From: Geobacter sp.
GTDB lineage: Bacteria > Desulfobacterota > Desulfuromonadia > Geobacterales > Geobacteraceae
Assembly: GCA_016177775.1 (NCBI GenBank)
Contig: JACOUQ010000015.1
Span: 186,001-250,000, forward strand
Direction of reading: 5' to 3'
DNA length: 64,000 nucleotides
A program made the position numbers and the translations under genes. Of this stretch, positions 33,041-56,832 are shown piece after piece (the stretch's first letter is position 1; each line of letters starts with the position of its first letter). The notes under the pieces are model-generated. The model was given only the letters and a program-made list of their open reading frames with translations. It ran no database searches and was not told the DNA's origin.

Positions 33041-33084
33041 ATTAATGGCTGAAATTTCGAGCCAAAATCTGTTAAGCGCAACCG

Positions 33085-33151
33085 AGGCTGACCGGACAAC
33101 CGGAGGCCAGGCATGCATCGTCAGTGACGATCATCCTGGCCTCTTTTTTTT
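33085..33151 (+). promoter_or_regulatory. Leader RNA A: conserved hairpin abutting a terminator, before metK
   Basis: GGCTGA leads into hairpin CCGG-ACAA-CCGG (33092-33103). This directly abuts terminator stem AGGCCAGG/CCTGGCCT (33104-33142), with an inner ATCGTCA/TGACGAT hairpin and a T-tract to 33151. The same layout recurs before the NifB-like gene and other genes of this locus, with compensating base changes in both stems. Confidence 0.8.
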
Positions 33152-38278: not shown

Positions 38279-38300
38279 AGGAAGCAAGGGAGGCAGGAAC

Positions 38301-40599: not shown

Positions 40600-40770
40600 T
40601 GGGCCGGGTTCCGCTAATCCACAAAATCTGTGGAAAGAGTTGTTGAAAAATGGAAGGGCGGTTTTCGTCGAAGGCCTAACATCAAGGGGCTGATAACAAA
40701 ATGCCCAAAAAATAACCTACAAGTCTATCTATTTTATGGATTATAATAGGAAAAATATCAGAAAAAGATA

Positions 40771-40813
40771 TTGACTATTTTGTTTGGCTGTAATAGTCTA
40801 TCTATCAAATAGA
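40771..40813 (+). promoter_or_regulatory. Promoter region with palindromic operator upstream of the NifB-like gene
   Basis: TTGACT (40771-40776) is followed by TAATAG (40791-40796) at 14 bases or TAGTCT (40794) at 17 bases. The palindrome TCTATC-N5-AATAGA occupies 40797-40813 (5 of 6 arms paired). TAATAGTCTAT is identical to the site at 56739. The gap 40600-40770 is AT-rich, holds a further half-site (TCTATCTATTTTATGGA near 40722) and no gene. Confidence 0.65.
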
Positions 40814-40830
40814 ATAAATCAATAATTGAA

Positions 40831-40877
40831 GCTGACCAGACAACTGGAGGCCAAGGGATTTTCCTTGGCCTTTTTTT
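40831..40877 (+). promoter_or_regulatory. Leader RNA B: conserved hairpin abutting a terminator, before the NifB-like gene
   Basis: GCTGA leads into CCAG-ACAA-CTGG (40836-40847), directly abutting AGGCCAAGG/CCTTGGCCT and seven T residues. It is the clearest copy of the motif. The terminator ends 18 bases before the NifB-like start, so termination versus read-through would control the whole downstream cluster. Confidence 0.82.
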
Positions 40878-40894: not shown

Positions 40895-41737
40895 ATGGCG
40901 ATTACGTGCAGGGAAAGGAAAAACATCCAGGGGCATCCCTGCTTCGGCGGAAATCACCGGGAGAACGGCCGTATCCATCTGCCGGTGGCGCCGCGCTGCA
41001 ATATCAAATGCAACTTCTGCACCCGACGTCATGACTGCGCCAACGAGTCCCGTCCCGGTGTGACCAGCAGGCTCCTTACCCCACTGGAGGCGCTGGAACG
41101 GGTCCGGGAAGTGGTGGAGAGCCCCCTTCTGGGGCCGATCATCAAGGTGGTGGGAATTGCCGGGCCGGGAGACCCGTTGGCAAACGAGGAAACCTTCGAG
41201 ACCTTCCGGCTGGTGGGCCAGGAGTTCCCGCACCTGATCAAGTGCTTGAGCACCAATGGCCTGCGGCTGCCGGACACCATAGCCCGCCTCCATGGGCTGG
41301 ACCTGCGGAGCCTGACCGTCACCATCAACGCCCTCGATCCCCGCGTCGGAGCCCGGGTATATTCCTGGGTCAACCATGGCGGCAAGCGATATTCCGGGGA
41401 AGAAGGGGCCGAGATACTCGTCCGCAACCAGCTGGAAGGGGTTGAATGGGCGGCGGGGTACGGCATGACGGTAAAGGTGAACACGGTCCTCATCCCCGGC
41501 ATCAACGAGGCGGAAATCAGTCGGATTGCGGAAGAGGTGAAACGGCGCGGCGCCTTCATCATGAATGTCATGCCCCTCATCCCCCAGGCGGCGTTCGCCC
41601 ATGTCGCTCCCCCATCTCCCGAGCGTCTCGAAGAGGTGCGCAGGGAGAACGAACGGATCATCGGCCAGTTCAAGCACTGCCGCCAGTGCCGCGCCGATGC
41701 CGTGGGGCTTATTGAAAGCGGGGTTTCAGCGGCGTAA
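40895..41737 (+). CDS. NifB-like radical-SAM cofactor synthase (280 aa, no NifX domain)
   Basis: The NifB signature is intact: GHPCFGG, LPVAPRCNIKCNFCTRRHDCANESRPGVTS with radical-SAM Cys 35, 39 and 42, Cys16 and Cys48 for accessory clusters, and a C-terminal HCRQCRADAVGL. NifB fuses two 4Fe-4S units and inserts a carbide to make the 8Fe-9S-C NifB-co. The protein lacks the C-terminal NifX-like domain of long NifB; a separate NifX-like gene lies at 53941. Start ATG 40895 follows AAGGGG. Its presence means that the NifDK-like enzyme below probably carries a NifB-co-derived cluster. Confidence 0.93.
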   Translation: MAITCRERKNIQGHPCFGGNHRENGRIHLPVAPRCNIKCNFCTRRHDCANESRPGVTSRLLTPLEALERVREVVESPLLGPIIKVVGIAGPGDPLANEETFETFRLVGQEFPHLIKCLSTNGLRLPDTIARLHGLDLRSLTVTINALDPRVGARVYSWVNHGGKRYSGEEGAEILVRNQLEGVEWAAGYGMTVKVNTVLIPGINEAEISRIAEEVKRRGAFIMNVMPLIPQAAFAHVAPPSPERLEEVRRENERIIGQFKHCRQCRADAVGLIESGVSAA

Positions 41738-41792
41738 AATTTTTTTATCCATCAGACTACTTGGTTAATAGGGAATAGGAAGTGGGGCAACC

Positions 41793-41960
41793 ATGGCACA
41801 GCAGGGTGTAATCGTTCGGAAAAAAGAGGATGTTCAGTACGAAACCTTGAAGACCGTGCAGGATGTCATGGACACAATAAGCCACGGCTCCCTGACCCTT
41901 CTCATTCAGGACGGCAGGGTGCTGCAGATCGACAAGAAGGAAAAGATCCGGCTCAAGTAG
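41793..41960 (+). CDS. YezD/DUF2292-family small protein (55 aa)
   Basis: The frame encodes MAQQGVIVRKKEDVQYETL, then SHGSLTLLIQDGRVLQIDKKEKIRLK, the DUF2292 pattern (G-S-x-x-x-x-IxDGxVxQIxxxEK-R). In Bacteria such genes are commonly near sulfate or sulfonate assimilation genes. It lies between the NifB-like and NifH-like genes, co-directional with short gaps, so it belongs to the operon. The biochemical role is unknown. It is an independent pointer to sulfur metabolism. Confidence 0.85.
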   Translation: MAQQGVIVRKKEDVQYETLKTVQDVMDTISHGSLTLLIQDGRVLQIDKKEKIRLK

Positions 41961-41992
41961 AGGCCAACTAAACAAAAGCAAAGGAGACCAGG

Positions 41993-42871
41993 ATGTCTAC
42001 AAAGAAAGTGAAGACCATCGCCATATACGGCAAGGGAGGGATCGGGAAGTCGACTACAACTTCCAACATCAGCGCGGCCCTGTCAGTGGCGGGGCTGAAG
42101 GTGATGCAGATCGGCTGTGATCCCAAGAGCGATTCGACCACCACGCTTCGCGGCGGCGGGTACATCCCGACCATCCTCGACGTGCTGCGGGAGAAGAAGA
42201 CGGTCAAGGGGAACGAGGTGATCTTTGAGGGGTTCAACGGCATCTACTGCGTCGAAGCGGGCGGCCCGGCCCCCGGGGTTGGCTGCGCGGGGCGCGGGAT
42301 CATTACCTCAGTCCAGCTGTTAAAGCAGCTGCGGGTCTTTGAAGAGCTCGACGTGGACGTCGTGGTCTACGACGTTCTCGGTGACGTGGTCTGCGGCGGG
42401 TTCGCCGTGCCGATCCGGGAAGGGATCGCCGAGCACGTTTTCACCGTAGCTTCGTCGGACTTCATGGCGCTCTATGCCGCCAACAACCTGTTCAAGGGGA
42501 TACAGAAGTACTCAAATAACGGTGGCGCGCTTTTGGGTGGCCTCATTGCCAACTCGGTCAACTCCGACTATGCGAAAGAGATCATCGACGATTTCGTGGC
42601 ACAGACGAAGACGCAGGTGGTGGAGTATGTGCCGCGGTCGGTGACGGTGACCCAGTCTGAACTGCAAGGGAAGACAACCACCGAGGCGTTTCCCGACTCC
42701 GAGCAGGCGAAAGTCTACAAGCGGCTGGCGGAGAAGATTTACAACCATACGGAATCGAAAGTGCCGTCCCCCTTGGGAGACAAGGAATTGCACGAGTGGG
42801 CGCTGAGCTGGGCAGACCAGCTGCTTGCCATGGAGACCGGCGAGGTGCGCGGCAGGGCGGCTGCAATCTAG
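41993..42871 (+). CDS. NifH-like reductase ATPase (292 aa)
   Basis: P-loop [10 protein letters not shown] (residues 13-22), switch [14 protein letters not shown] and the two Cys that bridge a 4Fe-4S cluster between subunits, C98 (GVGCAGRGI) and C134 (GDVVCGGFA), are intact. R101 matches the ADP-ribosylation arginine of NifH. The length and order match NifH more than BchL/ChlL. It would deliver ATP-gated low-potential electrons to the NifDK-like complex encoded 3.2 kb downstream. The start follows AAAGGAG. It is separated from nifDK-like genes by transporter genes, unlike classical nifHDK. Confidence 0.95.
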
Positions 42872-42873
42872 AC

Positions 42874-42992
42874 GGCTTACGCTTTCACGCCATCTTGGCG
42901 CCGTCCTCGGAGGTCTCCTTGTGCGGCGTAGCGCTGCTACGCCTCCGCGGGACCTCCTGCGGGTGCACCAATCTGACGCAAAATCGTAAGCC
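42874..42992. repeat. Second repeat family, copy 1 (after the NifH-like gene)
   Basis: The element is bounded by GGCTTACG and CGTAAGCC. Its core is CTCGGAGGTCTCCTTGTGCG, then GGCGTAGCGCTGCTACGCC and CCGCGGGACCTCCTGCGGGTG. It shares this layout with 48964-49103. Both copies begin at the stop codon word TAGACGG. Confidence 0.75.
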
Positions 42993-43020
42993 TCCTTAAG
43001 AATTTGCTTGTTTAGGGGAT

Positions 43021-43048
43021 GTAGGGGCGCAGCATGCTGCGCCCCTAC
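43021..43048. repeat. Minimal GTAGGGGC palindrome, copy 5
   Basis: This is a perfect 14+14 base palindrome, GTAGGGGCGCAGCA and its complement, just before the ribosome site of the permease at 43076. Confidence 0.85.
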
Positions 43049-43075
43049 GAAAACCCGATCTGTAGAGGAGGAAAT

Positions 43076-43963
43076 ATGAGCGACGTACAAACCAGCCGGG
43101 GAGACGTACTTATCTTTGAACGGAAAGACGCCGGAGCGGGGAAGGCCCAGGCGGGAAGCGGCGCTAAGCCGCGACGGAGGCTCTTGTGCGCGCTCTCAGC
43201 CGTAAATGGCCGGCTTCTCGACTGGTACGGGCTGCTCACCCTGGCCATCCTCTGGGAGGTGGGACCACGGCGGGGGTGGATCGACATCCAGTTCTTTCCC
43301 CCCCCCTCGGCGATCATAGCCGAGGGGGGGAAGCTCGCGGAGAAGGGGGAGCTCCTCGTCCACATCGTTGCGAGCCTGGAGCGGACCTTCCTCGGACTCG
43401 GGGTCGCGTTCGCCGTCGGTATCCCTCTGGGGTTCATCCTCGGCGGCTGGTTTCCCCGGCTCACCCGCTTTCTCCAGCCGCTCTTGCGGCTCTTCGGCCA
43501 GATCAACGCGTTTTCCCTCTTTCCGCTCTTCGTGCTCTTCTTCGGCATCGGTGAGCTGGCCAAGTTCGCAATCATCTTCTGGTCCTCCCTCTGGCCGATC
43601 CTCTTCACCACCATTGCCGGGGTCCAGGAGGTCGATCCCCTCTACGTGAAGGTCGCCCGTTCCATGGGGGCGGGCAGGTTGCGGCTCTTCGCCAGGGTCC
43701 TCTTTCCGGGCGCGCTGGCGTCGATCTTCACCGGCATCAGGCTCGGGACGACGATGGCCTTCCTCATGCTGATCGCCGCCGAGATGATCGGCGCCACTGC
43801 CGGCCTCGGCTGGCTGGTGCTGAACTCGTCGCAGAACTACGTCATACCCAGGCTCTACCTGGCAGCGGTCATCATCGCCATCATCGGCACGGGGATGAAC
43901 TTCTTCCTCCTCACCCTTGAGGGATGGGTGATCCGCTGGAAGGAAACGGTCGAGGTGCAGTAG
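43076..43963 (+). CDS. ABC-transporter permease, SsuC-type (importer 2, first subunit)
   Basis: This 295-aa protein has a long cytoplasmic N-terminus (~55 residues, basic, AQAGSGAKPRRR) before the SsuC-like core. Key segments are WEVGPRRGWIDIQFFPPPSAI, GQINAFSLFPLFVLFFGIGELAKFAIIFWSSLWPI and the EAA-like loop VDPLYVKVARSMGAGRLRLFARVLFPGALASIFTGIRLG. ATG 43076 follows GAGGAGG. The FxQINAF-S-LFPLF segment is shared with the permeases at 44027, 50156 and 51327, so the four are paralogues and may form heterodimers. The stop codon is part of a GTAGGGG repeat. Confidence 0.88.
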   Translation: MSDVQTSRGDVLIFERKDAGAGKAQAGSGAKPRRRLLCALSAVNGRLLDWYGLLTLAILWEVGPRRGWIDIQFFPPPSAIIAEGGKLAEKGELLVHIVASLERTFLGLGVAFAVGIPLGFILGGWFPRLTRFLQPLLRLFGQINAFSLFPLFVLFFGIGELAKFAIIFWSSLWPILFTTIAGVQEVDPLYVKVARSMGAGRLRLFARVLFPGALASIFTGIRLGTTMAFLMLIAAEMIGATAGLGWLVLNSSQNYVIPRLYLAAVIIAIIGTGMNFFLLTLEGWVIRWKETVEVQ

Positions 43964-44011
43964 GGGCGCATGGCGTGCGCCAAAAAAGGGGGGGACGCCG
44001 TCCGCCCCTAC
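43960..44011. repeat. GTAGGGGC palindromic intergenic repeat, copy 6
   Basis: GTAGGGGCGCATGGCGTGCGCC and GGGACGCCGTCCGCCCCTAC. It supplies the stop codon of the upstream permease. Confidence 0.8.
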
Positions 44012-44026
44012 ACAAGGAGTTCGGAT

Positions 44027-44824
44027 ATGGCTGACACAAGTATAAAAGAACCCTTCTGGTCGCCGGCACGGCACCTTGACAAGCTCTCCATCGTGCTCTT
44101 CTTCGCCGCCTGGGAGGCCGCTCCCCGGCTGGGCGGCATCGTGGAGACATTCATTGCTCCCCCGTCGCTGGTGCTGAAGACGCTGGTCGAGCTCTTCAGG
44201 CAGGGGGAGATGCTCGGTCACGTCACCATCAGCTTATCCCGCGCTGTCTCCGGCTTCGGCGTCGCGGCCCTGGTCGCAATTCCCCTCGGTTTTCTCCTTG
44301 GCGGCGGCTTCCGGACCTTCGAGCGTCTGGTGGCGCCGGTGCTTCGCTTCCTCGGTCAGGTGAACCCCTTTTCCCTCTTCTCCCTGTTCGTTCTACTCTT
44401 CGGAATCGGCGAATTTTCCAAGGGGGCGATGATCTTCTGGGTTTCTCTCTGGCCGATTCTCTTCAATACCATCAACGGAGTGAAAAGCATCGATCCCCTG
44501 CTGGTTAAGTCGGCCCGCTCCATGGGGACGGGGCTCACGACCCTATTCTTCAAGGTGATACTTCCCGCAGCATCGCCCGGGATTTTTCATGGCCTGAAAC
44601 TGGGGTCAGGGACAGCTTTTTTCATGCTGATCGCCGCGGAGATGATTGGTGCAAGCAGGGGACTGGGGTGGCTCGTCTGGAACGCCCAGATCAATTTCCA
44701 GATGCCGCAGCTCTTCGCGGCCACGGTCCTGATATCCGTGCTGGGGCTATCGCTCAACTTCACCTTCGGCGCACTTGAGGAGAAGCTTACGGGGTGGAGG
44801 CGGAAATCGGCCGGTGAAAGCTGA
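44027..44824 (+). CDS. ABC-transporter permease, SsuC-type (importer 2, second subunit)
   Basis: This 265-aa protein contains FAAWEAAPRLGGIVETFIAPPS, GQVNPFSLFSLFVLLFGIGEFSKGAMIFWVSLWPI and the loop IDPLLVKSARSMGTGLTTLFFKVILPAASPGIFHGLKLG. ATG 44027 follows AAGGAGT; the longer frame would run through the repeat. It is paralogous to its neighbour at 43076 but has a shorter N-terminus. The tandem suggests a heterodimeric membrane domain for the substrate-binding protein encoded next. Confidence 0.88.
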   Translation: MADTSIKEPFWSPARHLDKLSIVLFFAAWEAAPRLGGIVETFIAPPSLVLKTLVELFRQGEMLGHVTISLSRAVSGFGVAALVAIPLGFLLGGGFRTFERLVAPVLRFLGQVNPFSLFSLFVLLFGIGEFSKGAMIFWVSLWPILFNTINGVKSIDPLLVKSARSMGTGLTTLFFKVILPAASPGIFHGLKLGSGTAFFMLIAAEMIGASRGLGWLVWNAQINFQMPQLFAATVLISVLGLSLNFTFGALEEKLTGWRRKSAGES

Positions 44825-44839
44825 TGATGAGCAAATGGC

Positions 44840-44912
44840 AGGGTGCGTTAGCGAAGCGTAACGCACCGAATAATGGTGCGTTACGGCAAGAAACCGCCTA
44901 ACGCACCCTACA
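44840..44912. repeat. GGGTGCGTTA-type palindromic repeat
   Basis: GGGTGCGTTAGCG/CGTAACGCACC and a second arm ending CGCCTAACGCACCCTAC. It is of a different family from GTAGGGGC but placed in the same way between genes. Confidence 0.75.
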
Positions 44913-44936
44913 AAGACAAAGCAAAAGGAGGAAGTC

Positions 44937-46010
44937 ATGTCATTTAAAAGCAGGAAGCATTATTGGATCGCGGCGGCAGTTGTCGCGGTTGTCGCGGCGG
45001 CTGCGGCGGTTGGGGTGTCGACCGTCCAGGCCACCCCGAAGAAGCCGCTGGTGGAGATCAGGACCTGGACCAGGAAGGATTGCTCGCTGGCGCCGTGGCT
45101 GGTGACGGAAAAGCTCGGCTACTTCGCCGAGGAGGGGATCAAGCTGGTCTATACCGGCGAGACCCAGCCGGCGCTGCAGATCCCGTCGCTCATCAAGGGG
45201 AACAACGACGTGGGGAGCGGCCACGCCAACCAGTACGGGATTGCCATCGCCGGCGGGGCGCCGCTTACCGGGGTGGTGCGCGGCGGGATCGAGCCTGCCG
45301 AGAACATCGACCCCAAGTTCCGGCACATGTGGTTTTTCGTAAATCCTACCAAGCACCCGAATATCAAGAAATTCAGCGACCTGAAGAACATTGAGGGGAA
45401 GATCAAGATCGCCACCATCACCAAGAACATCTGCACCGATTTCCTGGTGAACAAGTTGGCGGACAAGTACGGCATCCCCAAGGACAAGTTCGAATGGGTG
45501 ACCATGCCCGACATCCAGGGGATCCAGGCGCTCAAGCAGGGGCTCGTCGATGTCTCGACCGCCCATCCACCCTTCTACAAGGGTAACCTGGACGCCGGCG
45601 CGGTGAAGATCGGCGACTCCTTCGAGACCGGCCTTGGAAGATCGGCCGGGCTTTCCTTCTACTGGTTCAGGAACGACTTTATCAAGAACAATCCCCAGAC
45701 CGTGGCCGGCTTTGTCCGGGCGATCAAGAAGGGGCAGCGCTGGGCCAACGAGCACCCCGATCAGGCCGCCAAGTGGACCGAAGAGGCGATCGGCGTGCCT
45801 GTCACCGGCAATCACTACTATTCGGAGGACGCCACCATCGTCGAGAAGGAGATCGACCCGTGGATCAAGGCGATCGAGGATGCCGGCATTGTCCCCAAGG
45901 GGAAGATCACCTCTGCCTCCATCGTCACCCACCAGTTCGAGAAGTACGGGAATGATGACAAGGTGTATCAGGAGAAGCTGAAGAAGAAGGGTAAGAAGAA
46001 AAAGGGGTAG
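44937..46010 (+). CDS. ABC-transporter substrate-binding protein, SsuA/TauA-type (importer 2)
   Basis: The signal region is HYWIAAAVVAVVAAAAAVGVSTVQA. The mature NMT1-like fold follows: CSLAPWLVTEKLGYFAEEGIKLVYTGETQPALQIPSLI, GSGHANQYGIAIAGGAPL and TAHPPFYKGNLDAGAVKIGDS. The C-terminus is strongly basic (KKKGKKKKG). It is only distantly related to the SBP of importer 1, so the two importers probably take different ligands. It sits directly before the NifD-like gene, which ties transport to the reductase. The ligand may be an organosulfur compound (inferred). Confidence 0.87.
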   Translation: MSFKSRKHYWIAAAVVAVVAAAAAVGVSTVQATPKKPLVEIRTWTRKDCSLAPWLVTEKLGYFAEEGIKLVYTGETQPALQIPSLIKGNNDVGSGHANQYGIAIAGGAPLTGVVRGGIEPAENIDPKFRHMWFFVNPTKHPNIKKFSDLKNIEGKIKIATITKNICTDFLVNKLADKYGIPKDKFEWVTMPDIQGIQALKQGLVDVSTAHPPFYKGNLDAGAVKIGDSFETGLGRSAGLSFYWFRNDFIKNNPQTVAGFVRAIKKGQRWANEHPDQAAKWTEEAIGVPVTGNHYYSEDATIVEKEIDPWIKAIEDAGIVPKGKITSASIVTHQFEKYGNDDKVYQEKLKKKGKKKKG

Positions 46011-46020
46011 GACGAACAAG

Positions 46021-46079
46021 GTAGGGGCGAACCTGTGTGTTCGCCCTGGAACCGGGCAGACACACAGGTCTGCCCCTAC
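46021..46079. repeat. GTAGGGGC palindromic intergenic repeat, copy 7
   Basis: GTAGGGGCGAACC...GTTCGCCC and GGGCAGACACACAGGTCTGCCCCTAC lie just before the NifD-like gene. Confidence 0.8.
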
Positions 46080-46109
46080 CATCACCTTCACCATGAAAGG
46101 AGAAATGCC

Positions 46110-47612
46110 ATGATCGACCTGAAGGCACAAACCTGCCCCAACCGGGAGCAGCGGGCCGGGGCCATCAATGCTTACTACGGCAAGGCGAGCGACCTTGTGA
46201 AGGAGGCGCGGGAGGGGACCCTCACCAACAAGGAGAGAGATTTCCAGCAGTCCTCGGGCTGCGTGCTCAATTTCTACCTGACCACCCGTGTGGTGACCAT
46301 CCGTGACGCGGTGATGATCGTCCACGCGCCGGTCGGATGCTCGTCGACCTCGCTTCTCTACCGCGAGGTCTACCGTCGGATTCCCTTGAGCGAGGGGCGG
46401 CCGGCCGATTTCGACCTCCACTGGCTCACCACCAACCTGGATGAAAAGGACGTGGTCTACGGCGGCGCCGACAAGCTCCGCTTCGCCATCAAGGAAGCGG
46501 AGGAGCGCTACAGTCCGAAGGCGATTTTCATCCTTGCCTCCTGCACTTCGGGGATCATCGGCGAGGACATCGACGGGGTCGTGGCCGAGGTACAGAACGA
46601 AGTCAATGCGACCATCGTGCCGGTCCACTGCGAGGGGATCCGCTCGCGCATCATCCAGACCGCCTACGACGCCTTCTGGCACGGCATCCTCAAGCACCTG
46701 GTAAAGAAGGATATCCCGAAACAGCCCGACCTGGTGAACATCGCCAGCATGCTCTCCTACACCTGGCAGGACCGGCTGGAGATCACCCGCCTCCTGAACA
46801 GGATAGGGCTGCGCCCCAATTTCATCCCCGAATTCGCCACGGTCGAGCAGTTCGAAATCCTGGGCGCGGCGGCGGTGACCGCCCCCATCTGCCCCACCTA
46901 CACCGATTATCTCTCCCGGGGGCTGGAGCAGGAGTTCGGGGTGCCGTACTTCATGTATCCTTCGCCGGTGGGGATCGACCACACGGACGAGTGGCTCAGG
47001 ACTATTGCCCGCTACACCGGGAAGGAAAAGGAGGTGGAGGTGCTGATCAGGGAAGAGCGGGAAAAATGGGTGCCGAAGATGGAAGTCATCCAGAACGAGT
47101 TTGCCAAAATCAAACCCAACGGGGAGAAGGTGGAGATCCTCGGGTCGCTGGGCCAGGGACGGCTCCTCACCCAGGTACCCTACTTCGAGGAGATCGGCGT
47201 CAAGAGCCCGGCGGCCATCATCCAGGATTTCGACAACCTGGTGCTGGACGAGGTCCAGGGGATCATCGACCAGGTCGGCGACTTCGACGTGTTGGTCAAC
47301 ACCTTCCAGGCGGCGGAGTTGGCGCACATCACCCGCAAGTACGATCCGGATGTGGCCCTCACCTGCCCGTTCCAGGGTAGCGCCTACAAACGGGAGAAGG
47401 GAGCCACCAGGATACATGCCCTTCGGGGCGACGCGCGGCAGTGGAGTGCACAGGCAGGATACAAGGGGGCGATCGCCTACGGCAATTTCCTCCTCCAGTC
47501 GGTGAAGAACAAGGCGTTCCAGAAGACCATGCTGGCAAAGACCCCGGATACCTACCAGGACTGGTGGTACAAGCAGCCGGACCCGCTCCATTATCTTAAG
47601 AAGGAGGCCTAG
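46110..47612 (+). CDS. NifD-like catalytic subunit of a nitrogenase-like reductase (500 aa)
   Basis: The three P-cluster-type Cys are present at NifD-like spacing: C51 (QQSSGCVLN), C77 (HAPVGCSST) and C145 (LASCTSGIIG). C261 in TAPICPTYTDYL is near the position of the cofactor-binding Cys275 of NifD. The region that carries His442 in NifD is replaced by LTCPFQGSAYKREKGATRIH, so the cofactor pocket differs from true nitrogenase. The ATG at 46110 follows AAAGGAG; the open frame further upstream is the repeat. Four bases separate its stop from the NifK-like start. The likely role is reduction of an organic (perhaps carbon-sulfur) substrate rather than N2. Confidence 0.92.
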   Translation: MIDLKAQTCPNREQRAGAINAYYGKASDLVKEAREGTLTNKERDFQQSSGCVLNFYLTTRVVTIRDAVMIVHAPVGCSSTSLLYREVYRRIPLSEGRPADFDLHWLTTNLDEKDVVYGGADKLRFAIKEAEERYSPKAIFILASCTSGIIGEDIDGVVAEVQNEVNATIVPVHCEGIRSRIIQTAYDAFWHGILKHLVKKDIPKQPDLVNIASMLSYTWQDRLEITRLLNRIGLRPNFIPEFATVEQFEILGAAAVTAPICPTYTDYLSRGLEQEFGVPYFMYPSPVGIDHTDEWLRTIARYTGKEKEVEVLIREEREKWVPKMEVIQNEFAKIKPNGEKVEILGSLGQGRLLTQVPYFEEIGVKSPAAIIQDFDNLVLDEVQGIIDQVGDFDVLVNTFQAAELAHITRKYDPDVALTCPFQGSAYKREKGATRIHALRGDARQWSAQAGYKGAIAYGNFLLQSVKNKAFQKTMLAKTPDTYQDWWYKQPDPLHYLKKEA

Positions 47613-47616
47613 CCAG

Positions 47617-48963
47617 ATGGGGACAGTTACACCGTTACGTACCAAGGAAGAACCGCTTTATCCCGGGGTTGCGGAAGCACCCCGCTACTCCTGCGCACTC
47701 GGGGGTGCCTACATGGCGACCCTCGCCACCTTCGGCGCCGTGCCGATCCTCCATTCCGGGGCTGGTTGCGGCATGGCACAGAATTTCGGCCAGAACTTCG
47801 CCGCCGGCCTGAACGACGCCGGCCCGCAGGGAAACACGAGCACCCCCTGCTCCTGCCTGGTGGAGGAGCATGCGGTCTTCGGCGGCGAGGACAAGCTGCG
47901 CGCCCTGATCAAGTCCACCATCGAGCTGGTGCGCGGCGACCTGTTCGCGGTCATCTCCGGCTGCGTTCCGGCCCTGATCGGCGACGACGTGGCGGCAGTG
48001 GTCAAGGAGTTCCGCAAGGACGTGCCGATCATACATGTCAATACCGCCGGTTTTCTCGGCAACTCCTACAAGGGGTACGAGCAGTTCCTGGAGGCGGTCA
48101 TTGACCAGCTGCTGGAGCCCTTGCCGGCGGTGCGCAGACAGGTGAACCTGCTTGGCATCGTCCCTTTCCAGCACGTCTTCTGGAAAGGGGATCTCCAGGC
48201 CATCAAGACCTTGCTGGAAAAAATCGGGCTCAAGGTCAACATGATCTTCACCGAAAACAACGGCCTGGAAGCGCTCAGGAGCATCCCGGCGGCCGAGCTG
48301 AACCTGGTCTTCTCCCCCTGGTCCGGGGTCGGGGTGGCGCGGAAGCTGGAGGAAAAGTTCGGCACCCCCTATGCCGTCATCCCGTCGGTGCCGGTCGGAC
48401 CGAAAGACACCACCGCCTTTCTCCGCTTCCTGGCCCGGCGCCTCCGGTTACGGCGCAGCAGCGTGGAGAAGGTGATAGCCGCGGAAGAGCATCGCGCCTA
48501 TCGCTTCAGCGAATACATGGCCGCCATTTCGACGATGGCGCTTCCCAATGCCTACACGGCGATCGTGGCCGACGCCGGCACGGCCATCGGGCTCACCCGT
48601 TACGGCAGCAACGAACTGGGGTGGCTCCCGGAGATCGTCATCATCACCGACAATCCGCCGGAGGAGTTCCATGCCGAGATCGTCCGGCGGCTGACAGAGG
48701 GGCTTGAGAGCGCGGTCAAACCCGAGGTCTACTTCGAGATAGATTCCCACAAGATCCGTCTGCTGCTCCGGGAGCACACCGTGCAGCTGATCCTGGCCAG
48801 TTCTCTGGAGAAGCACATTGCCGTGGATGAGCTGAACGCCATGCAGGTGAGCGTCGCCTTTCCTGTGTATGACCGGCTTATCGTCGATCGGACCTATGCG
48901 GGGTACCGGGGAGGGCTGGCGTTGATGGAGGACGTTGCCTACAAATACGGCGGGCCTTTGTAG
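47617..48963 (+). CDS. NifK-like beta subunit of a nitrogenase-like reductase (448 aa)
   Basis: P-cluster-type Cys C26 (RYSCALGG), C51 (SGAGCGM) and C116 (ISGCVPALIGDDV) are spaced like NifK Cys70/95/153. STPCSCLVEEHAVFGGEDKL and VNTAGFLGNSYKGYE are typical of the family. It lacks the long N-terminal extension of Mo-nitrogenase NifK. With the NifD-like protein it should form an alpha2beta2 complex holding two 8Fe-7S clusters. Four bases separate it from the NifD-like gene, so 1:1 expression is likely. The TAG stop starts the second-family repeat. Confidence 0.92.
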   Translation: MGTVTPLRTKEEPLYPGVAEAPRYSCALGGAYMATLATFGAVPILHSGAGCGMAQNFGQNFAAGLNDAGPQGNTSTPCSCLVEEHAVFGGEDKLRALIKSTIELVRGDLFAVISGCVPALIGDDVAAVVKEFRKDVPIIHVNTAGFLGNSYKGYEQFLEAVIDQLLEPLPAVRRQVNLLGIVPFQHVFWKGDLQAIKTLLEKIGLKVNMIFTENNGLEALRSIPAAELNLVFSPWSGVGVARKLEEKFGTPYAVIPSVPVGPKDTTAFLRFLARRLRLRRSSVEKVIAAEEHRAYRFSEYMAAISTMALPNAYTAIVADAGTAIGLTRYGSNELGWLPEIVIITDNPPEEFHAEIVRRLTEGLESAVKPEVYFEIDSHKIRLLLREHTVQLILASSLEKHIAVDELNAMQVSVAFPVYDRLIVDRTYAGYRGGLALMEDVAYKYGGPL

Positions 48964-50155: not shown

Positions 50156-51232
50156 ATGTTCGATAAAATCGATACGATCAAGACCCATCTCCTCCGCTGG
50201 TCAGGGGTCGTGGTTTTTCTCCTCCTCTGGGAGGCGGCGCCGCGGCTCGGCTGGCTCGACGCGCAATTCGCCCCGCCGTTCTCAACGGTGCTCGGGGCGA
50301 TCCATGAACTCGCCGCTGACGGGAGTCTCGCAAAGCACCTGGTCATCAGTATCTGGCGCGGCGTCACCGGTCTTCTTGTTGCTACGCTGGTTGCCATTCC
50401 CGCCGGGTTTCTCCTCGGCCTGCGCCTGCCGGTATGGGCGGCCGTCCTTGACCCGTTCCTGCGCGTATTGAGCCAGGTCAATCCATTTTCGCTCATGCCC
50501 GTCTTCATCCTTTTCTTCGGCATCGGCGAGACGGCCAAGATCGTGGTGATCGCCTGGGTTTCCCTCTGGCCGATCCTCTTCTACACCATCACGGCGGTCC
50601 GCAATGTCGACCCGCTTCTGCTCAAGACCGCGCGATCCCTCGGCATAACCACCGGCGAACTTTATCTCAAGGTGATTCTCCCCGCGTCCCTGCCGGTTAT
50701 TTTCGTGGGACTGCGAATCGGCGCCGGCCTGGTCTTTTTCATGATCGTCGCGGCCGAGATGCTGGGGGCCAACGCGGGCCTCGGCTGGCTCGTGCACAAT
50801 TCCGCCATGAACTACCAGACCCCGCGCATCTATGCCGGAGCGACCTTCATCGTTATTCTCGGCTACCTCCTCAATCGTTTCCTGCTCGCCCTGGAGAGGG
50901 CGTTTTTTTCAGGGGAGCAGGAACAGGTCGATCTGGTCCCGGCGCGGCGATCCTCCGCCCCCTCCTGGCGGCCCGGTTGGAGAAGCGCGGCCGCGGCAGC
51001 CTCGGTTATCTTCGTGTTCCTCCTGGCGGGAGGACGCGAGGTATACCTGAGTAACCTCGCTAATGCCAGCCTGGGAGGGCATCTGGGGCACCAGGAAGAG
51101 GCCGGGGAGGCGAACGTGGAATACACCTGCCCCATGCACCCCTTTATCGTCAGGGAAAAACCGGATGTCTGCCCGCTCTGCGGCATGAGGCTGGTGAGGA
51201 AGAGCGACGCTGCGCACGGCGCCGGGCATTGA
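50156..51232 (+). CDS. SsuC-type ABC permease fused to a C-terminal heavy-metal-binding domain (358 aa)
   Basis: Residues 1-250 are a standard SsuC-like permease (WEAAPRLGWLDAQFAPPFS, SQVNPFSLMPVFILFFGIGETAKIV, VDPLLLKTARSLGITTGELYLKVILPASLP). After a linker an extra membrane segment (~280-300, AAAASVIFVFLLAGG) leads to EYTCPMHPFIVREKPDVCPLCGMRLV, the Cys-rich heavy-metal-binding domain found in copper/silver efflux proteins, and a His-rich end GAGH. This topology would put the metal site in the periplasm. I know of no common precedent for this fusion in sulfonate permeases. Confidence 0.87.
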   Translation: MFDKIDTIKTHLLRWSGVVVFLLLWEAAPRLGWLDAQFAPPFSTVLGAIHELAADGSLAKHLVISIWRGVTGLLVATLVAIPAGFLLGLRLPVWAAVLDPFLRVLSQVNPFSLMPVFILFFGIGETAKIVVIAWVSLWPILFYTITAVRNVDPLLLKTARSLGITTGELYLKVILPASLPVIFVGLRIGAGLVFFMIVAAEMLGANAGLGWLVHNSAMNYQTPRIYAGATFIVILGYLLNRFLLALERAFFSGEQEQVDLVPARRSSAPSWRPGWRSAAAAASVIFVFLLAGGREVYLSNLANASLGGHLGHQEEAGEANVEYTCPMHPFIVREKPDVCPLCGMRLVRKSDAAHGAGH

Positions 51233-51296: not shown

Positions 51297-51326
51297 CAGC
51301 GCATGAAATGCGTACAAAGGAATGAA

Positions 51327-52130
51327 ATGAACACAAAAGATATCATCATCAGACGCATCATTCTGCTGGCAATCGTTCTGCTGGCGTGGGAAACCTTGCC
51401 CCGGCTCGGGGTGATCAACCCGCTATTCATCCCCCCCCTGTCGGGCGTGATTACTGCCCTGCGCGAGCTGGCGGGAAACGGCGAGATGGCCACCCATGCC
51501 GCGATCAGCCTTCAGCGGGCCGCGCTCGGTTTCGCTGCCGGCGCGGTGCTGGGGCTTCCCCTCGGGCTCGTTCTCGGCGGGTGGTTCCCGCGCCTGCAGA
51601 CGGCGCTGGAGCCGCTGATGGAGCTTTTTGCCCAGGCCAACCCCCTGATCCTCTTCCATGTCATCATCCTCTTCCTCGGCATCGGCGAGGCTGCGAAGAC
51701 CTTCATCATTGGCTGGCTCTGCCTTTGGCCGGTCACCTTCGCTACCATCACCGGGGTGCGGACGGCCGACCCCACGCTCCTGAAGGCAGCCCGCTCGCTC
51801 GGTCTCGGCCGGGCTGGGCTCTTTGTCCGGGTTACACTGCCTGCGGCAGCGCCGTCCATCGTGACCGGACTCCGGCTGGCGGCGGGGTACGCCTTCATCA
51901 TGCTGATCGCCGCTGAGATGATGGGTGCCAGCTCCGGTCTCGGCTGGCTCGTGATCCAGGCCCAGGAGAGCTATCACATCACGCGGATCTTCGCCGGCGC
52001 TTTCGTGATCACGCTCCTCGCCATAACCGCCGATTGGCTGCTGAAGCTCCTCGGGGGGCGCTTCCTCAGCCGGGTCGAATCGGGGGCCGATGATTACGTG
52101 CGGATGCAGGGGAGCGCCGGTAAAATTTAA
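51327..52130 (+). CDS. ABC-transporter permease, SsuC-type (importer 2, fourth paralogue)
   Basis: This 267-aa protein has WETLPRLGVINPLFIPPLSGV, AQANPLILFHVIILFLGIGEAAKTFIIGWLCLWPV and the loop ADPTLLKAARSLGLGRAGLFVRVTLPAAAPSIVTGLRLA. ATG 51327 follows AAAGGA; ATG 51303 is in frame. It follows the metal-domain permease and may pair with it as 43076 pairs with 44027. The stop is 20 bases before the broken flavoprotein gene. Confidence 0.88.
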   Translation: MNTKDIIIRRIILLAIVLLAWETLPRLGVINPLFIPPLSGVITALRELAGNGEMATHAAISLQRAALGFAAGAVLGLPLGLVLGGWFPRLQTALEPLMELFAQANPLILFHVIILFLGIGEAAKTFIIGWLCLWPVTFATITGVRTADPTLLKAARSLGLGRAGLFVRVTLPAAAPSIVTGLRLAAGYAFIMLIAAEMMGASSGLGWLVIQAQESYHITRIFAGAFVITLLAITADWLLKLLGGRFLSRVESGADDYVRMQGSAGKI

Positions 52131-52150
52131 AATGCGGAAAGGGTATTGTC

Positions 52151-52725
52151 ATGAACATTGTCGCAATTCTCGGAAGCCCTCGGAAGGGGAACAGCGCAGC
52201 CATTACCGAGCGTTTCCTTGCCGCCGGCGAGCGCCACGGGCTAAAACCAGGACCTTCGTCCTCAACGACCTGAGCTACCGTGGCTGTCAGGCGTGTTATG
52301 CCTGTAAAAATAGTGCTGACGCCTGCGTCATCAATGATGACCTGGCGCCGGTTCTGGATGCGGTGCGGGACGCTGACGTGGTGGTGCTGGCAACGCCGGT
52401 CTACTTCGGGGATATTACCGCCCAGTTGAAAACGTTCTTCGACCGGAGCTTCTCCTTTTTCACCCCGGATTACCGGATATCCAACACCCCGAGCCGTCTG
52501 GCTCCCGGCAAGAAGCTGGTCTTCGTCCAGACCCAGGGGCAGCCGGACGGGTCGTTCTTCGATGATATTTACCCGCGCTACGACCGCTTCTTGAAGCGCT
52601 TCGGCTTCGGCGAGACGCACCTGATCCGCGGTGTCGGCCTTTCCGCCCCTGACGATGCCGCCAGGAACGATAAGCTCCTTGAAGAGACCGACCTGACGGC
52701 GGCCAGGGTCCTCTCCGGGGAATAG
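52151..52725 (+). pseudogene. Iron-sulfur flavoprotein / NADPH-FMN-reductase-like gene with a frameshift
   Basis: ATG 52151 opens a correct flavodoxin-like start (MNIVAILGSPRKGNSAAITE, phosphate loop GSPRKGNS). After residue ~30 the frame runs to an early stop, while the continuation (FVLNDLSYRGCQACYACKNSADACVINDDL, ATPVYFGDITAQLKTFFDR, TQGQPDGSFFDDIY) is open in another frame. A small indel near 52240-52250 explains this. The CQACYACK motif would carry an iron-sulfur cluster. It is either a real disruption or a sequence error; if intact it could be an electron donor for the reductase. Confidence 0.8.
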
Positions 52726-52740: not shown

Positions 52741-53892
52741 ATGAGGAAAGAGGAACCGATGGGCTTCCGGAAAGTGGCAAATGAGGTTTCGGGTTCTTTC
52801 GGCGACCTTGGCACCTTTCTCCCCCATGTCCTCGGCGTCATCACGCTCGCCGGCTTCAAGCCGGCCGGCATCTTCACGCTGTTCGGCCTCTTCTACCTCT
52901 TCACCGGCCTCTTCTACCGGATACCGATACCGGTCCAGCCGATGAAGGTTGCTTCCGCCGCGGTCCTTACGGGAAAGGTGACTCCGGCCGAGATGGCCGG
53001 CGCGACCCTCATGATCGGGGCCACGCTGCTGGTCCTAGGGGTGACGGGGGTGATCGGGGTGATCGCCCGCAGGATACCGCGGGCAGTGGTCTCCGGGGTG
53101 CAGCTGGGGCTGGGGTCGGGGCTCGCTCTGCTCGGGCTGAGGATGGTCCTCGGCAACCCCTCCATCGGGCTCGTCACCCTGACGGTCATGCTTCCGCTCG
53201 GGTTCAACCGCCGGCTCCCCCAGGCGATCACAGGGATAGCCATCGGTGTGCTGGCGGGCCTGGTCATTTCGGGGCCTCCGGCTGTGCCGCAGCTGGCTCC
53301 CGTGCTCCAGCTTCCGTCCCTGGAACTGCCCGGCTGGCCGGAGATCTGGCGCGGCACGATCAAAATGGGGCTCCCCCAGCTTTCGCTCACGCTGACCAAC
53401 GCGATCATCGTCACCGCCACGCTGGCCGGGCATCTCTTCCCGGAGAGCCGCCGGGCGTCCCCGGCAATGCTTGCCCTCACCCAGGGGGGCGCGAACCTGG
53501 TCAGCGGCCTTCTGGGCGGCTTCCCTATGTGTCACGGCGCCGGCGGGCTCGCATCCCATTACCGCTTCGGCGCGCGGACCGGGGCCGTGGGGGTGATCCT
53601 CGGCACTGCCCTGCTGGTTACCGGACTATGGTTCGGAGACGCGGCCCTGGCGCTGCTCCGTTTCATACCGGAAGCGACCCTCGGCGCTCTTCTGTTCTAC
53701 GGAGCAATTGACCTCGCCATCGGCGGCTGGGCGCCGGCATCGCGAAGGGACATCCTGATATCGCTGGCAGTAGCCCTGCTGGCGTTCTTCGTGAATCCGG
53801 CCGCGGGGATAGTTGCCGGGCTCGTGCTGTTTTACCTTCCCCTCACCCCGGCCCTCTCCCAAGAGGAACGGGAGGCGATAAAATCGGCGTGA
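52741..53892 (+). CDS. MOT1-type molybdate/sulfate transporter (383 aa)
   Basis: Ten or more membrane segments carry the MOT1 signatures: EVSGSFGDLGTFLPHVLGVI near the N-terminus, PVQPMKVASAAVLTG and GGFPMCHGAGGLASHYRFGAR. Members of this family take up molybdate, and related SulP proteins take up sulfate. ATG 52741 or 52759 could start it. The C-terminus (PLTPALSQEEREAIKSA) is encoded by a common intergenic palindrome that has replaced the native end. In this locus it could feed molybdenum for the metallocluster or sulfate for assimilation. Confidence 0.87.
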   Translation: MRKEEPMGFRKVANEVSGSFGDLGTFLPHVLGVITLAGFKPAGIFTLFGLFYLFTGLFYRIPIPVQPMKVASAAVLTGKVTPAEMAGATLMIGATLLVLGVTGVIGVIARRIPRAVVSGVQLGLGSGLALLGLRMVLGNPSIGLVTLTVMLPLGFNRRLPQAITGIAIGVLAGLVISGPPAVPQLAPVLQLPSLELPGWPEIWRGTIKMGLPQLSLTLTNAIIVTATLAGHLFPESRRASPAMLALTQGGANLVSGLLGGFPMCHGAGGLASHYRFGARTGAVGVILGTALLVTGLWFGDAALALLRFIPEATLGALLFYGAIDLAIGGWAPASRRDILISLAVALLAFFVNPAAGIVAGLVLFYLPLTPALSQEEREAIKSA

Positions 53893-53940: not shown

Positions 53941-54354
53941 ATGCTGAAAATTGCAGTGGCTACGAGCGACGGCACGAGCATCGACGAGCATTTCGGACAG
54001 GCGAGGGAGTTCCGGATATTCGAGGTGGACGACTCCGGCGGCTTCCAGCTTGTGGGGGTGAGGGAGATCAGGCCACACTGCCCCGGAGACCCTGCGGTCG
54101 CTCATTCTGCGGATGCGACAGTGGAGCAGCTTGGCGGCGTGGACGCGGTGTTCGTCAACCGGATCGGCCCCGGTGCGGCCAGGAACCTGGAAGAAAAAGG
54201 GATCAAGGCCTTTGCCCTCTCCGGGCCTATTGACCGGGCGCTCGCCGCCTACGGCAAGCGGCACAGCCTGATCGATGCCAAGATCCCCGGCGTATCACAA
54301 GGATTCACACCGGCCGGAGGCGAGCCGTGCGGCTGCTCCGGGAGGTGCAGGTAA
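53941..54354 (+). CDS. NifX/NifB-C-domain iron-molybdenum-cofactor-binding-like protein (137 aa)
   Basis: The core is that of the dinitrogenase FeMo-cofactor-binding fold: MLKIAVATSDGTSIDEHFGQ, AREFRIFEV, then AVFVNRIGPGAARNLEEKGIKAFAL. The C-terminus is Cys-rich (GEPCGCSGRC), possibly for cluster binding. Such proteins hold NifB-co or its derivatives. As the NifB-like protein here lacks this domain, the two probably work together. The stop overlaps the following start by one base. Confidence 0.9.
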   Translation: MLKIAVATSDGTSIDEHFGQAREFRIFEVDDSGGFQLVGVREIRPHCPGDPAVAHSADATVEQLGGVDAVFVNRIGPGAARNLEEKGIKAFALSGPIDRALAAYGKRHSLIDAKIPGVSQGFTPAGGEPCGCSGRCR

Positions 54355-55424
54355 TGGCGGGGGAGTTCCGTGAGACAATGACCTCCGGCGAGCGCTTTGC
54401 CGCAGCCGTCACCGGCAAGCCGTACGACCGGATTCCGGTCAACCTCCTCATCAGCGACCACGCCGCCCGGGTCCTCGGGGTGACGGTGGCTGAATACCAG
54501 CACTCGGCGAAGCTCATGGCGCGGGGGCAGGCAACGGCATGGCGCAGGTACGGCCATGATCTGGTGAACGTCGGGCCGGGGCTCACCGGGATTCCAGAGG
54601 CGCTAGGGTGCCGGATCGGCTTCCCCGACAGCTCTCCCTTTGTGGCCGAGTCGCCCGTGAAGACCGAAAAGGACCTGGACCGGCTGCGGGTCCCCGATCC
54701 CCACCGCGACGCAAGGCTGCCGCTCTTTCTCGAAGCCGCGGTCCTTCTGCGCGAGGAGATCGGGAACGAGGCGCCCGTTTCCATGACCACCTCCGGCCCC
54801 TTCACCACTGCCGCGCATCTGAGAGGGACGGAGCAGTTCCTGCGCGACCTGCGGAAGAACCCGGAACTGGTCTACCAGCTTTTGCGCATTGCCACCGACA
54901 GCATCATCGCCTTTGCCCGGGCGGCGGCGGATGTGGGGGTGCGGGTCAGCATCGCCGACCCGACCGCCTCGGGAACGCTCATCAGCGCCGGGCAGTTCCG
55001 GGAGTTCGCCCTGCCGTATCTCACCGAGGTGGCGGCAGCGGTGAAGGAGGCGACCGGCGGCGCGCCGGCCCTCCACATCTGCGGCAATACCCGGAAGATC
55101 TGGCGGGAGATGGCCGACACAGGAGCGGGGTTACTGTCGCTTGACGACGCGGTGGATCTGGCGGAGGCGAAGGCGCAGGTGGGGGATATTGTCCCGCTCC
55201 TGGGGAACGTGCGGCCCACCGACGTCATGTACCTGGGGAAGCCGGAGGATGTCCGGGCGAATGCCTTGGAGTGCCTGGCAAAGGGGTGGGACACCCCAAA
55301 GGGGTATGTTCTGGGCCTGGGATGCGGGCTCCCCATCGATACGCCGCCGGAGAACATCCTGGCACTCGTGGACGCGGCGCGCACCTATGGGCGCTGGCCA
55401 CTCGATGCGGCGCGGTTTGCATGA
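54354..55424 (+). CDS. MtaA/CmuA-like uroporphyrinogen-decarboxylase-family methyltransferase (356 aa)
   Basis: The UroD fold has the zinc site typical of methylcobamide:thiol methyltransferases rather than of HemE: H241 and C243 (LHICGNT) plus C324 (GLGCGLPIDTPPENI). The TPENI-type ending also fits MtaA. HemE N-terminal motifs are absent. The enzyme would transfer a methyl group from a corrinoid to a thiol or the reverse. No corrinoid protein gene is in view except the B12-domain radical-SAM gene. It is coupled to the NifX-like gene by a TAATG overlap, linking methyl transfer with the metallocluster enzyme. Confidence 0.87.
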   Translation: MAGEFRETMTSGERFAAAVTGKPYDRIPVNLLISDHAARVLGVTVAEYQHSAKLMARGQATAWRRYGHDLVNVGPGLTGIPEALGCRIGFPDSSPFVAESPVKTEKDLDRLRVPDPHRDARLPLFLEAAVLLREEIGNEAPVSMTTSGPFTTAAHLRGTEQFLRDLRKNPELVYQLLRIATDSIIAFARAAADVGVRVSIADPTASGTLISAGQFREFALPYLTEVAAAVKEATGGAPALHICGNTRKIWREMADTGAGLLSLDDAVDLAEAKAQVGDIVPLLGNVRPTDVMYLGKPEDVRANALECLAKGWDTPKGYVLGLGCGLPIDTPPENILALVDAARTYGRWPLDAARFA

Positions 55425-56761: not shown

Positions 56762-56784
56762 TAATATACAATTTGTATCAGGGC

Positions 56785-56832
56785 GCTGACTGGTCAACCG
56801 GAGGCTGAGGATTTATATCCTTGGCCTTTTTT
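56785..56832 (+). promoter_or_regulatory. Leader RNA C: conserved hairpin abutting a terminator
   Basis: GCTGA leads into CTGG-TCAA-CCGG (a G-U pair keeps the stem), then directly GGCTGAGG/CCTTGGCC and six T residues. It has the same order and spacing as leaders A and B but with changed stem bases. Confidence 0.78.

Follow-up and report, generated by a model that had tools for sequence, protein, structure and literature searches.

In the open-access literature that we found, the nitrogenase-like enzymes with an experimental link to sulfur are two, methylthio-alkane reductase (Mar; MarBHDK of Rhodospirillum rubrum, PDB 9fmg and 9d9u) and isethionate reductase (Isr; IsrBHDK of Rhodobacter capsulatus). 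Here we describe the nfl operon of a Geobacter sp., which lies within positions 186001-250000 of contig C31, a stretch of 64,000 nucleotides that we call the window; the genome is a 3.42-Mb draft in 37 contigs and is 85% complete. The operon encodes NifB- and NifH-like proteins and a nitrogenase-like D/K pair, NflD and NflK (D1 and K1), while D2 and D3 denote further nitrogenase-like D proteins of the same genome. We suggest, with a probability of about 0.77, that nflBHDK is a nitrogenase-like reductase of a sulfur-acquisition regulon, which frees sulfur from imported organosulfur compounds by carbon-sulfur (C-S) cleavage. This reading draws on the gene set, the clade and residue pattern of NflD, the linkage to an importer and an RNA leader shared with sulfur genes.

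Mar resembles the nfl system in its NifB-type maturase, MarH-like reductase, P-cluster and cofactor cysteines and probable common role in sulfur metabolism, and forms the sister clade. In MarD, Arg428-His429 of loop I binds the Fe8S9C cluster, and this Arg-His might be a hallmark of Mar (PMC12552129). In contrast, NflD has Cys-Pro-Phe (CPF) in loop I, differs in other active-site residues and is 31% identical to MarD, and many nfl members have a linked four-permease importer. Isr, also nitrogenase-like, is encoded near SsuABC-type importers and serves anaerobic sulfur assimilation, as we propose for nfl; however, IsrD retains one of three P-cluster cysteines and lacks the other two and the cofactor cysteine, and IsrB is nearest to BciD and resembles NifB in the radical SAM motif alone (PMC11423573). 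For Endomicrobium proavitum, nitrogen fixation with a group IV enzyme has been described (PMC11257099, PMC8399215). The Heliophilum NflDK1 locus, which clades with this group IV-A NfaDK, has NifB, NifH, NifX and DK without NifEN, as nfl does, whereas NfaDK, compared here by description only, is reported second-hand to have, by prediction, the full set of ligands for N2 reduction (PMC9147875). The same source describes five clustered NflDK in Heliophilum and multiple nifDK-like copies as not unusual in group IV genomes. Dos Santos et al. (2012) described Cys275-bearing nitrogenase-like genes beside cysteine synthase or O-acetylhomoserine sulfhydrylase, Geobacter sp. FRC-32 among them, and ABC transporters beside some other such genes, and suggested a sulfur role; the text available mentions neither a Cys-for-His change nor an RNA leader (PMC3464626). 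Type 1 mlp clusters carry corrinoid, MtaA-like and RamA-like genes near Mar-like genes (PMC10418091), a likeness that concerns a neighbouring cluster of this genome, D3K3, more than the operon of the window. Nitrogenase-like genes beside sulfur genes, clustered NflDK and MtaA/corrinoid clusters beside Mar-like genes were known before. What is new is the changed ligand site of the CPF clade and a covarying terminator/antiterminator leader that matches no Rfam family; we found neither described in the open-access literature, subscription papers lying outside the search. For the multi-paralog islands, the same literature likewise gave no description other than the Heliophilum cluster and the group IV copies mentioned above.

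Subunits and clade of the nfl enzyme

Gene families were called with NCBIfam and Pfam models, and bit scores were judged against curated cut-offs. The initial annotation had recognized NifB-, NifH-, NifD- and NifK-like proteins with all cluster cysteines and a NifX at 53941, and each of these was recovered:

40895..41737 (ATG start), + strand: NifB, radical SAM maturase; TIGR01290 313 bits (cut-off 344), PDB 6y1x 329 bits, motifs intact
41793..41960, + strand: YezD (DUF2292), 55 amino acids (aa); PF10055 51 bits
41993..42871, + strand: NifH-type reductase, MarH-like; MarH 9fmg_D 475 bits, next NifH chain 280
43034..43963, + strand: importer permease A
43970..44824, + strand: importer permease B
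44937..46010, + strand: SsuA/TauA-type substrate-binding protein; 54 bits, cut-off 163.5
46110..47612, + strand: NflD, putative catalytic subunit of the CPF clade, 500 aa; C51/C77/C145, C261 and the clade-specific C419
47617..48963, + strand: NflK, partner subunit; P-cluster C26/C51/C116
49161..50039, + strand: importer ATPase
50156..51232, + strand: permease C with C-terminal heavy-metal-binding domain
51303..52130, + strand: importer permease D
52090..52725, + strand: NADPH-dependent FMN reductase-like protein
52741..53892, + strand: MOT1-type molybdate transporter
53941..54354, + strand: NifX-like cluster-binding protein
54327..55424, + strand: MtaA/CmuA-family methyltransferase; 217 bits, cut-off 235, with the URO-D domain above its cut-off

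The NifB of the window retains the CxxxCxxC, HPCF and HCRQCR motifs and lacks the C-terminal NifX domain, since the model matched at positions 7-276 of 441 alone. NifH retains C98 and C134 and scored 405 bits against its NCBIfam model, above the cut-off of 394. Both component 1 subunits fell under the cut-off of every listed family, with best scores of 141 bits for NflD, against the nitrogenase component I alpha model (cut-off 486), and 113 bits for NflK. For D, K and H alike, the closest PDB chain was the corresponding Mar subunit: NflD scored 238 bits against MarD and at most 100 against other chains, and NflK 279 bits against MarK and at most 120 against others. All six P-cluster cysteines are intact (D51/D77/D145 and K26/K51/K116), those of K in 93 of 93 K rows, and the cofactor cysteine D261, equivalent to MarD Cys270, is invariant across 52 rows.

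To place NflD, we computed a FastTree phylogeny of 94 D rows and an IQ-TREE phylogeny of 72 rows with less than 85% identity; two Chlorohelix and two Treponema plasmid proteins were added to the D rows, 98 in total. D/K pieces shorter than 400 aa after trimming, among them the NifEN fusion of this genome, and near-identical copies such as the D1 of S. silvacetica were left out of the trees, as were Isr and Nfa sequences. The D/K tree against reference families that the initial annotation had proposed was thus realized for Mar, two NifD, three NifE and one alternative-type row, whereas BchNB, CfbD, Vnf and Anf were compared by score only. Three main clades keep the P-cluster cysteines and the Cys270 equivalent. 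The Mar-type clade has Arg-His in loop I, a second clade, which includes D2 and D3, has Gly-His (Ser-His in one row), and the third, that of D1, has [TS]CPFQG in 23 of 23 orthologous D rows and GCPFMG in a Chlorohelix protein (45% identical). SH-aLRT/ultrafast bootstrap support was 98.7/99 for the D1 clade with Chlorohelix, 100/100 for the Mar-type clade, 100/100 for the two joined and 99.3/100 for the Gly-His clade. The D1 clade is the sister of the Mar family and lies outside it, and NflD groups with neither the NifD nor the NifE rows, which bears out the earlier suggestion of a distinct lineage. Across the 98 rows, loop I reads Gly/Ser-His in 33, Arg-His in 31, CPF in 24 and otherwise in ten, namely two NifD, three NifE, one alternative-nitrogenase-like protein, three Methanoperedenaceae paralogs and one protein matching no family (E 1e-60). 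Two D/K pairs of the Arg-His type were observed on the Treponema saccharophilum plasmid pTS2 (L126) beside NifX proteins, an importer and a type I-C CRISPR cas operon.

The AlphaFold model of D1 has a mean predicted local distance difference test score of 88, and its best match is MarD (9fmg), with a TM score of 0.86 at 2.6 Å. C419 directly follows the strand 415-418, at the place where the MarD sequence has Arg-His, so that this cysteine seems to stand where Mar has its histidine ligand. As the assignment is based on position and invariance, we regard C419 as a candidate ligand.

That the operon encodes methylthio-alkane reductase proper, freeing methanethiol from methylthio compounds, is improbable. 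The top PDB matches are Mar subunits, the operon has the same B, H, D and K genes and it belongs to a sulfur regulon, and NflDK shares with Mar the P-cluster cysteines in D and K and the Cys270 equivalent. However, D lies in a well-supported clade apart from that of R. rubrum MarD and lacks Arg428-His429, and Trp195, Phe199 and His375 of Mar are altered as well. Moreover, Sporomusa sp. KB1 has, next to D1, a separate gene for a MarD ortholog (79.6% identity with the R. rubrum protein), which has a counterpart in S. silvacetica; NflD is therefore not the Mar ortholog, an assignment that we rejected on clade and loop I.

An RNA leader shared with sulfur genes

The leader was first seen 5' of NifB in the window and in two relatives, and was then recovered 5' of MetK, 5' of a corrinoid gene in the D3K3 cluster (L010) and at one further locus (L118). 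A covariance model, R1, was built from four copies, three from this genome and one from another. In the window, the leader copies and the genes that follow them are:

40722..40816, + strand: two copies of AGTCTATCTAT, a 22-nt direct repeat, 77% identical, putative operator
40828..40877, + strand: RNA leader of the nfl operon, hairpin overlapping an intrinsic terminator; one of the four R1 sequences, with relatives in other genomes
33084..33151, + strand: leader copy 5' of MetK, in the R1 training set
33196..34401, + strand: MetK, S-adenosylmethionine synthetase
56782..56832, + strand: leader copy 5' of the TPR protein; E 5.0e-10, outside the R1 training set
56835-57440: TPR protein
57524..57573, + strand: leader copy 5' of the sulfatase; E 1.2e-8, outside the R1 training set
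57572..59257, + strand: sulfatase (PF00884)
60666..60718, + strand: weaker leader copy (E 1.6e-4) 5' of an MFS transporter open reading frame (ORF) with its start at 60890

Searching 26 loci with R1 gave 67 matches at E ≤0.02, the four training copies and two antisense pieces included; the latter two, partial rows gapped at the hairpin pairs, were kept in the alignment (A5). The hairpin has 7 bp and a GA/A internal loop, with 99.3% of cells paired. Six of the seven pairs change on both sides, and such changes numbered 65 against 19.4 in shuffles (0 of 500 as high). While the alignment was fitted to R1, which contained the inner stem, the outer stem was absent from the R1 structure and covaries nonetheless (C-G 52, U-G 8 and U-A 5 in 65 rows); many rows are related, so that these counts are not independent events. 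The 3' arm of the outer stem is also part of the terminator, so that the two would exclude each other, which is the shape of an antiterminator. A strict scan for this shape gave eight distinct sites in 1.52 Mb, each followed by a T-run, against a mean of 0.33 sites per shuffle (three shuffles, two-base blocks), and two of the eight, in a Bacillota metagenome-assembled genome (MAG), lie outside the six sites that defined the shape. No Rfam family matched the leader at gathering scores, and at E ≤10 the best overlap was gabT RNA with 17 bits against a gathering score of 45. A survey of RNA in 50 genomes names the yjbM and nifV motifs for Geobacter (PMC11109978). In the promoter region, AGTCTATCAAATAGATAG was found 5' of MetK, and the MetK (33022-33042) and nfl (40722-40816) promoter regions have in common a AGTCTATC/AATAGATAG-type sequence, possibly a regulator-binding site; the 12-mer TAGTCTATCTAT, with at most one mismatch, was absent from the 13 other loci scanned.

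Leader E-values come from a short calibration, and the genome searches scored part of the candidates, 150 of 935 in the R1 search of this genome. That search gave seven matches at E <1e-3, four of them outside the training set, all inside 57 kb of C31, and an eighth only at E 0.010. Besides MetK, the NifB-NflDK operon, the TPR protein, the sulfatase and the MFS transporter, the leaders precede two ORFs without a Pfam match (L009) and the corrinoid/D3K3 cluster. The 40 kb that surround the nif genes (L013, L014) yielded no leader at E ≤5. A second model, R2, whose training set includes all seven copies of this genome and copies from four other genomes of its class, was applied to the 277 genomes of the class, our own included. 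In these, a match to D1 at E ≤1e-40 was taken as an Nfl D and one at E ≤1e-100 as D1. The leader was present at E ≤1e-3 in 76 of 277 genomes, in all 33 with an Nfl D and in 43 of the 244 without (Fisher 6e-22, ignoring shared ancestry); 28 of the 33 had contributed no sequence to R2, and five had. Of 19 D1 genomes, 12 have a leader 5' of D1 in the same orientation, where either the operon or the D1 gene itself begins (two at E 0.007-0.01), four have none there, three of these without any match, and three were not callable owing to contig ends or the length of the match list.

The gene after a leader was taken as the longest ORF of at least 80 aa starting within 450 nt downstream, with one leader per place, at 49 places: 29 loci from the class search and 20 chosen with a preference for genomes lacking Nfl D and without prior knowledge of the genes that follow. 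Names were given by similarity to window proteins or by NCBIfam/Pfam, a few by likeness to a scanned protein, and those of the reductases, MetN and rhodanese partly under the curated cut-off. One place had no ORF, and by raw tally 33 of the other 48 had sulfur or nfl genes. A MetK homologue follows the leader in G190, G191, G222 and G273. The sulfur genes were CysK (5), MetK (4), SsuA/C importers (4), nitrite/sulfite-reductase family (3), sulfate-binding protein (2), O-acetylhomoserine sulfhydrylase (2), rhodanese (2) and MetN-like (1), and the ten nfl-module genes were NifB (4), NifX (2), corrinoid (2), NifH (1) and MtaA (1). At the 21 places in class genomes without Nfl D, ten sulfur genes and one corrinoid protein followed. 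Sulfur, not nitrogen, is the commonest theme of the regulon, so that the operon is most likely a sulfur-acquisition system, and the leader shared with sulfur genes assigns the enzyme to sulfur acquisition, not to the fixation of nitrogen. The sulfur-scavenging role that the initial annotation had proposed is supported by this leader, common to the operon, MetK and the sulfatase and, in relatives, to cysK, a sulfate-binding protein and O-acetylhomoserine sulfhydrylase. Its pointers to sulfur, YezD, sulfonate-type importers, a sulfatase and MetK, are all confirmed, the importer genes as two sets of SsuA/TauA type. MetK and the sulfatase proved to be good pointers, since each is preceded by the leader. 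YezD and the SsuABC set were matched near the operon in few of 24 related loci. This SsuABC set is the second importer set of the window:

36429-39089: SsuABC importer set, SsuA/TauA-type

Importer linkage, distribution and other explanations

The related loci came from one scan of 84,980 species genomes, which gave 24 loci with D relatives 67-94% identical to NflD; operon neighbours there were judged by similarity to the window's own proteins. Many of the genomes compared are MAGs, in which absence is weak evidence. The closest D, from Geotalea sp. SG265, is 94% identical, and the genome in which this match lies (G207) belongs to the family of the window's genome. The loci include Geotalea, Geobacter, Geomesophilobacter, one Desulfuromonadales MAG, Sporomusa, another Bacillota, a Methanoperedenaceae archaeon, a Chloroflexales MAG and a Myxococcales MAG, and 13 of the 24 are from Deltaproteobacteria MAGs, whose sample codes we take to denote termite guts. 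Many relatives are multi-copy, with nine D genes in 83 kb of Sporomusa sp. KB1, eight in S. silvacetica and seven in a Bacillota MAG. The nine of Sporomusa sp. KB1 (L069-L073, contig 2880001-2975000) comprise five Arg-His, three Gly-His and one CPF protein, and sulfur enzymes and several importers lie between them. In one part of this region (L072:4158-10741), the importers and nitrogenase-like genes flank BadF-type ATPase and 2-hydroxyglutaryl-CoA-dehydratase-D domains, a second ATP-driven reductase type, which presumably resembles the double-cubane proteins.

Thirteen CPF loci extend for some 4 kb or more on each side, and within 6 kb of D, 12 of them have an SsuA/TauA-type binding protein, 12 a permease, 11 NifH, 10 NifB and 10 NifX. 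A binding protein stands near D in 6/9 Gly-His and 4/9 Mar-type loci, and no importer gene was found near the genome's own NifD. These genes are tightly packed in the Deltaproteobacteria MAGs (ATPase, binding protein, NifH, D, K, NifB, NifX and permeases A-D). In Sporomusa, the nfl permease and binding-protein families adjoin a Mar-type D instead of D1, which hints at related substrates. cysK lies within the operon at three loci (L015, L017, L018), and the Chlorohelix homologue has O-acetylhomoserine sulfhydrylase nearby and an adjoining radical SAM protein not annotated as NifB. The heavy-metal-binding domain of permease C (50156-51232; YTCPMHP...CPLCGM) is unexpected for a sulfonate-type importer. 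No PDB relative of the operon's substrate-binding protein was found by sequence.

A search with the D protein gives ten matches in the genome, a number that includes K and NifEN pieces. Two further D/K pairs lie on C31 at 261859 and 280512, within about 50 kb. Gene names around these pairs (L009, L010) were assigned by eye and by mutual similarity: one pair adjoins an SsuA-type importer (L009), and the other (L010, D3K3) lies among genes for a sulfate-type importer, a NifH-like and a corrinoid protein, two methyltransferases of the MtaA type, a RamA-like activator, NifX and CysK. A second NifH-like protein lies in this sulfate-importer/corrinoid cluster (L010:4572-5453), and an ORF of L015 (1858) matches it at 38%. 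Contig C10 carries, in a separate nif cluster, a NifD (782 bits against a cut-off of 654) and a NifEN fusion of 945 aa (1726 bits against 1229). The absence of NifE and NifN noted in the initial annotation therefore holds for the window and not for the genome. The best match to homocitrate synthase in this 85% complete genome had 196.7 bits, under the cut-off of 462.9.

About as improbable as a Mar ortholog is that D1/K1 is a NifEN-like scaffold that matures the island's other D/K pairs. D1 lacks the histidine ligand, its scores against the NifE and NifD models are 134 and 130 bits, and all eight class genomes with D1, our own included, have at least one further Nfl D. However, 25 of the 33 class genomes with Nfl D genes have others but no D1, and on this count we rejected the scaffold. 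Four of 23 genomes (G011, G015, G017, G021; MAGs, possibly incomplete) have no other D below 1e-40 among the matches listed. NflDK also has its own importer and NifH and keeps the six P-cluster cysteines, and D1 stands apart from the three rows above the NifE cut-off.

It is still less likely that the operon is a NifEN-less nitrogenase of the Nfa kind that is said to fix N2 in E. proavitum. Its gene content is akin to that of the Heliophilum NflDK1 locus, but a sulfur-linked leader stands on the operon and none was found within the 40 kb searched at the nif genes, the genome has its own NifD and NifEN fusion, and D1 has neither known histidine ligand, in contrast to the ligands predicted for NfaDK. 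More generally, NflD is under the curated cut-offs for Nif, Vnf and Anf, does not group with the two NifD rows and the one alternative-type row of the tree and lacks a His442-type ligand, and a nitrogenase was rejected on family cut-offs, tree and regulation. Least plausible is isethionate reductase, which converts a sulfonate to sulfite and works with an SsuCAB importer (PMC11423573). The nfl importer is also of sulfonate type, but D1 retains all cluster cysteines and the operon NifB has its motifs, and we rejected Isr on the cysteine pattern; a sulfonate is a possible substrate of an nfl enzyme distinct from Isr.

Proposed mechanism and its implications

Several observations weigh against nflBHDK being a C-S-cleaving reductase of sulfur acquisition. 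For fifteen of the 48 genes that follow leaders, a link to sulfur is not evident (two methyltransferase-like, three porin, ten various or doubtful), and the leader searches gave no match in the genomes from Methanoperedenaceae, Chloroflexales and Myxococcales and none at the operon of G010. The further Nfl D genes in all D1-bearing class genomes make a helper role for D1 possible. The nearest paralog, from Methanoperedenaceae (52% identical), has QAPFKG without the cysteine. C419 may not touch the cluster, since the exchange of His for Cys comes from an alignment and lies at the border of a loop, residues 422-429, in which the model has low confidence. Finally, the operon of the window includes a MOT1-type molybdate transporter; it had no match in the 24 related loci, and a molybdenum role was dropped for this reason.

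By homology with Mar, NflDK is expected to hold a P-cluster and [Fe8S9C] and to carry out an ATP-driven reductive cleavage, and we infer the C-S cleavage, the cysteine ligation and the switching mechanism as follows. NifB would build the [Fe8S9C] precursor, which would enter NflDK without NifEN, molybdenum or homocitrate and be held by C261 and by C419 in place of the Mar histidine, while NifH would supply electrons with ATP through the P-cluster. The linked importer would bring in an organosulfur compound, NflDK would cut its C-S bond, and CysK, O-acetylhomoserine sulfhydrylase or a similar enzyme would fix the sulfur product. Judging by the link to cysK, the product may be sulfide or be turned into sulfide, and the MtaA-like and corrinoid genes point to a possible prior demethylation of methylated thiols. 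Under sulfur shortage, the leader hairpin would displace the terminator, so that the operon, MetK and the sulfatase are transcribed.

More tentatively, and with the odds somewhat against it, the system may represent a further kind of catalytic [Fe8S9C] enzyme, with a cluster held by two cysteines and its own importer, which would desulfurise one specific imported compound; it would be one of up to nine paralogs in a single island, under a new class of RNA antiterminator. If so, these antiterminators would govern sulfur acquisition in Sporomusa and, besides the taxonomic class to which the window belongs, in other deltaproteobacteria. A sister clade with an altered cluster ligand would be a natural test of how the protein sets the chemistry of a nitrogenase cluster, and the CPF clade also bears on the claim that such clusters predate nitrogen fixation (PMC12552129). 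The leader, itself a candidate regulatory RNA, may serve as an assay-free handle suggesting which nitrogenase-like operons serve sulfur supply. Environmental surveys call for caution, as NifHDK-like genes of the nfl kind may be miscounted as nitrogen fixation.

Elsewhere in the window, a c-di-GMP-I-GGC riboswitch (Rfam RF03167, 64.6 bits) lies at 169-248, 5' of a 2873-aa ORF at 641-9262; this riboswitch variant is a cGAMP sensor in Geobacter.

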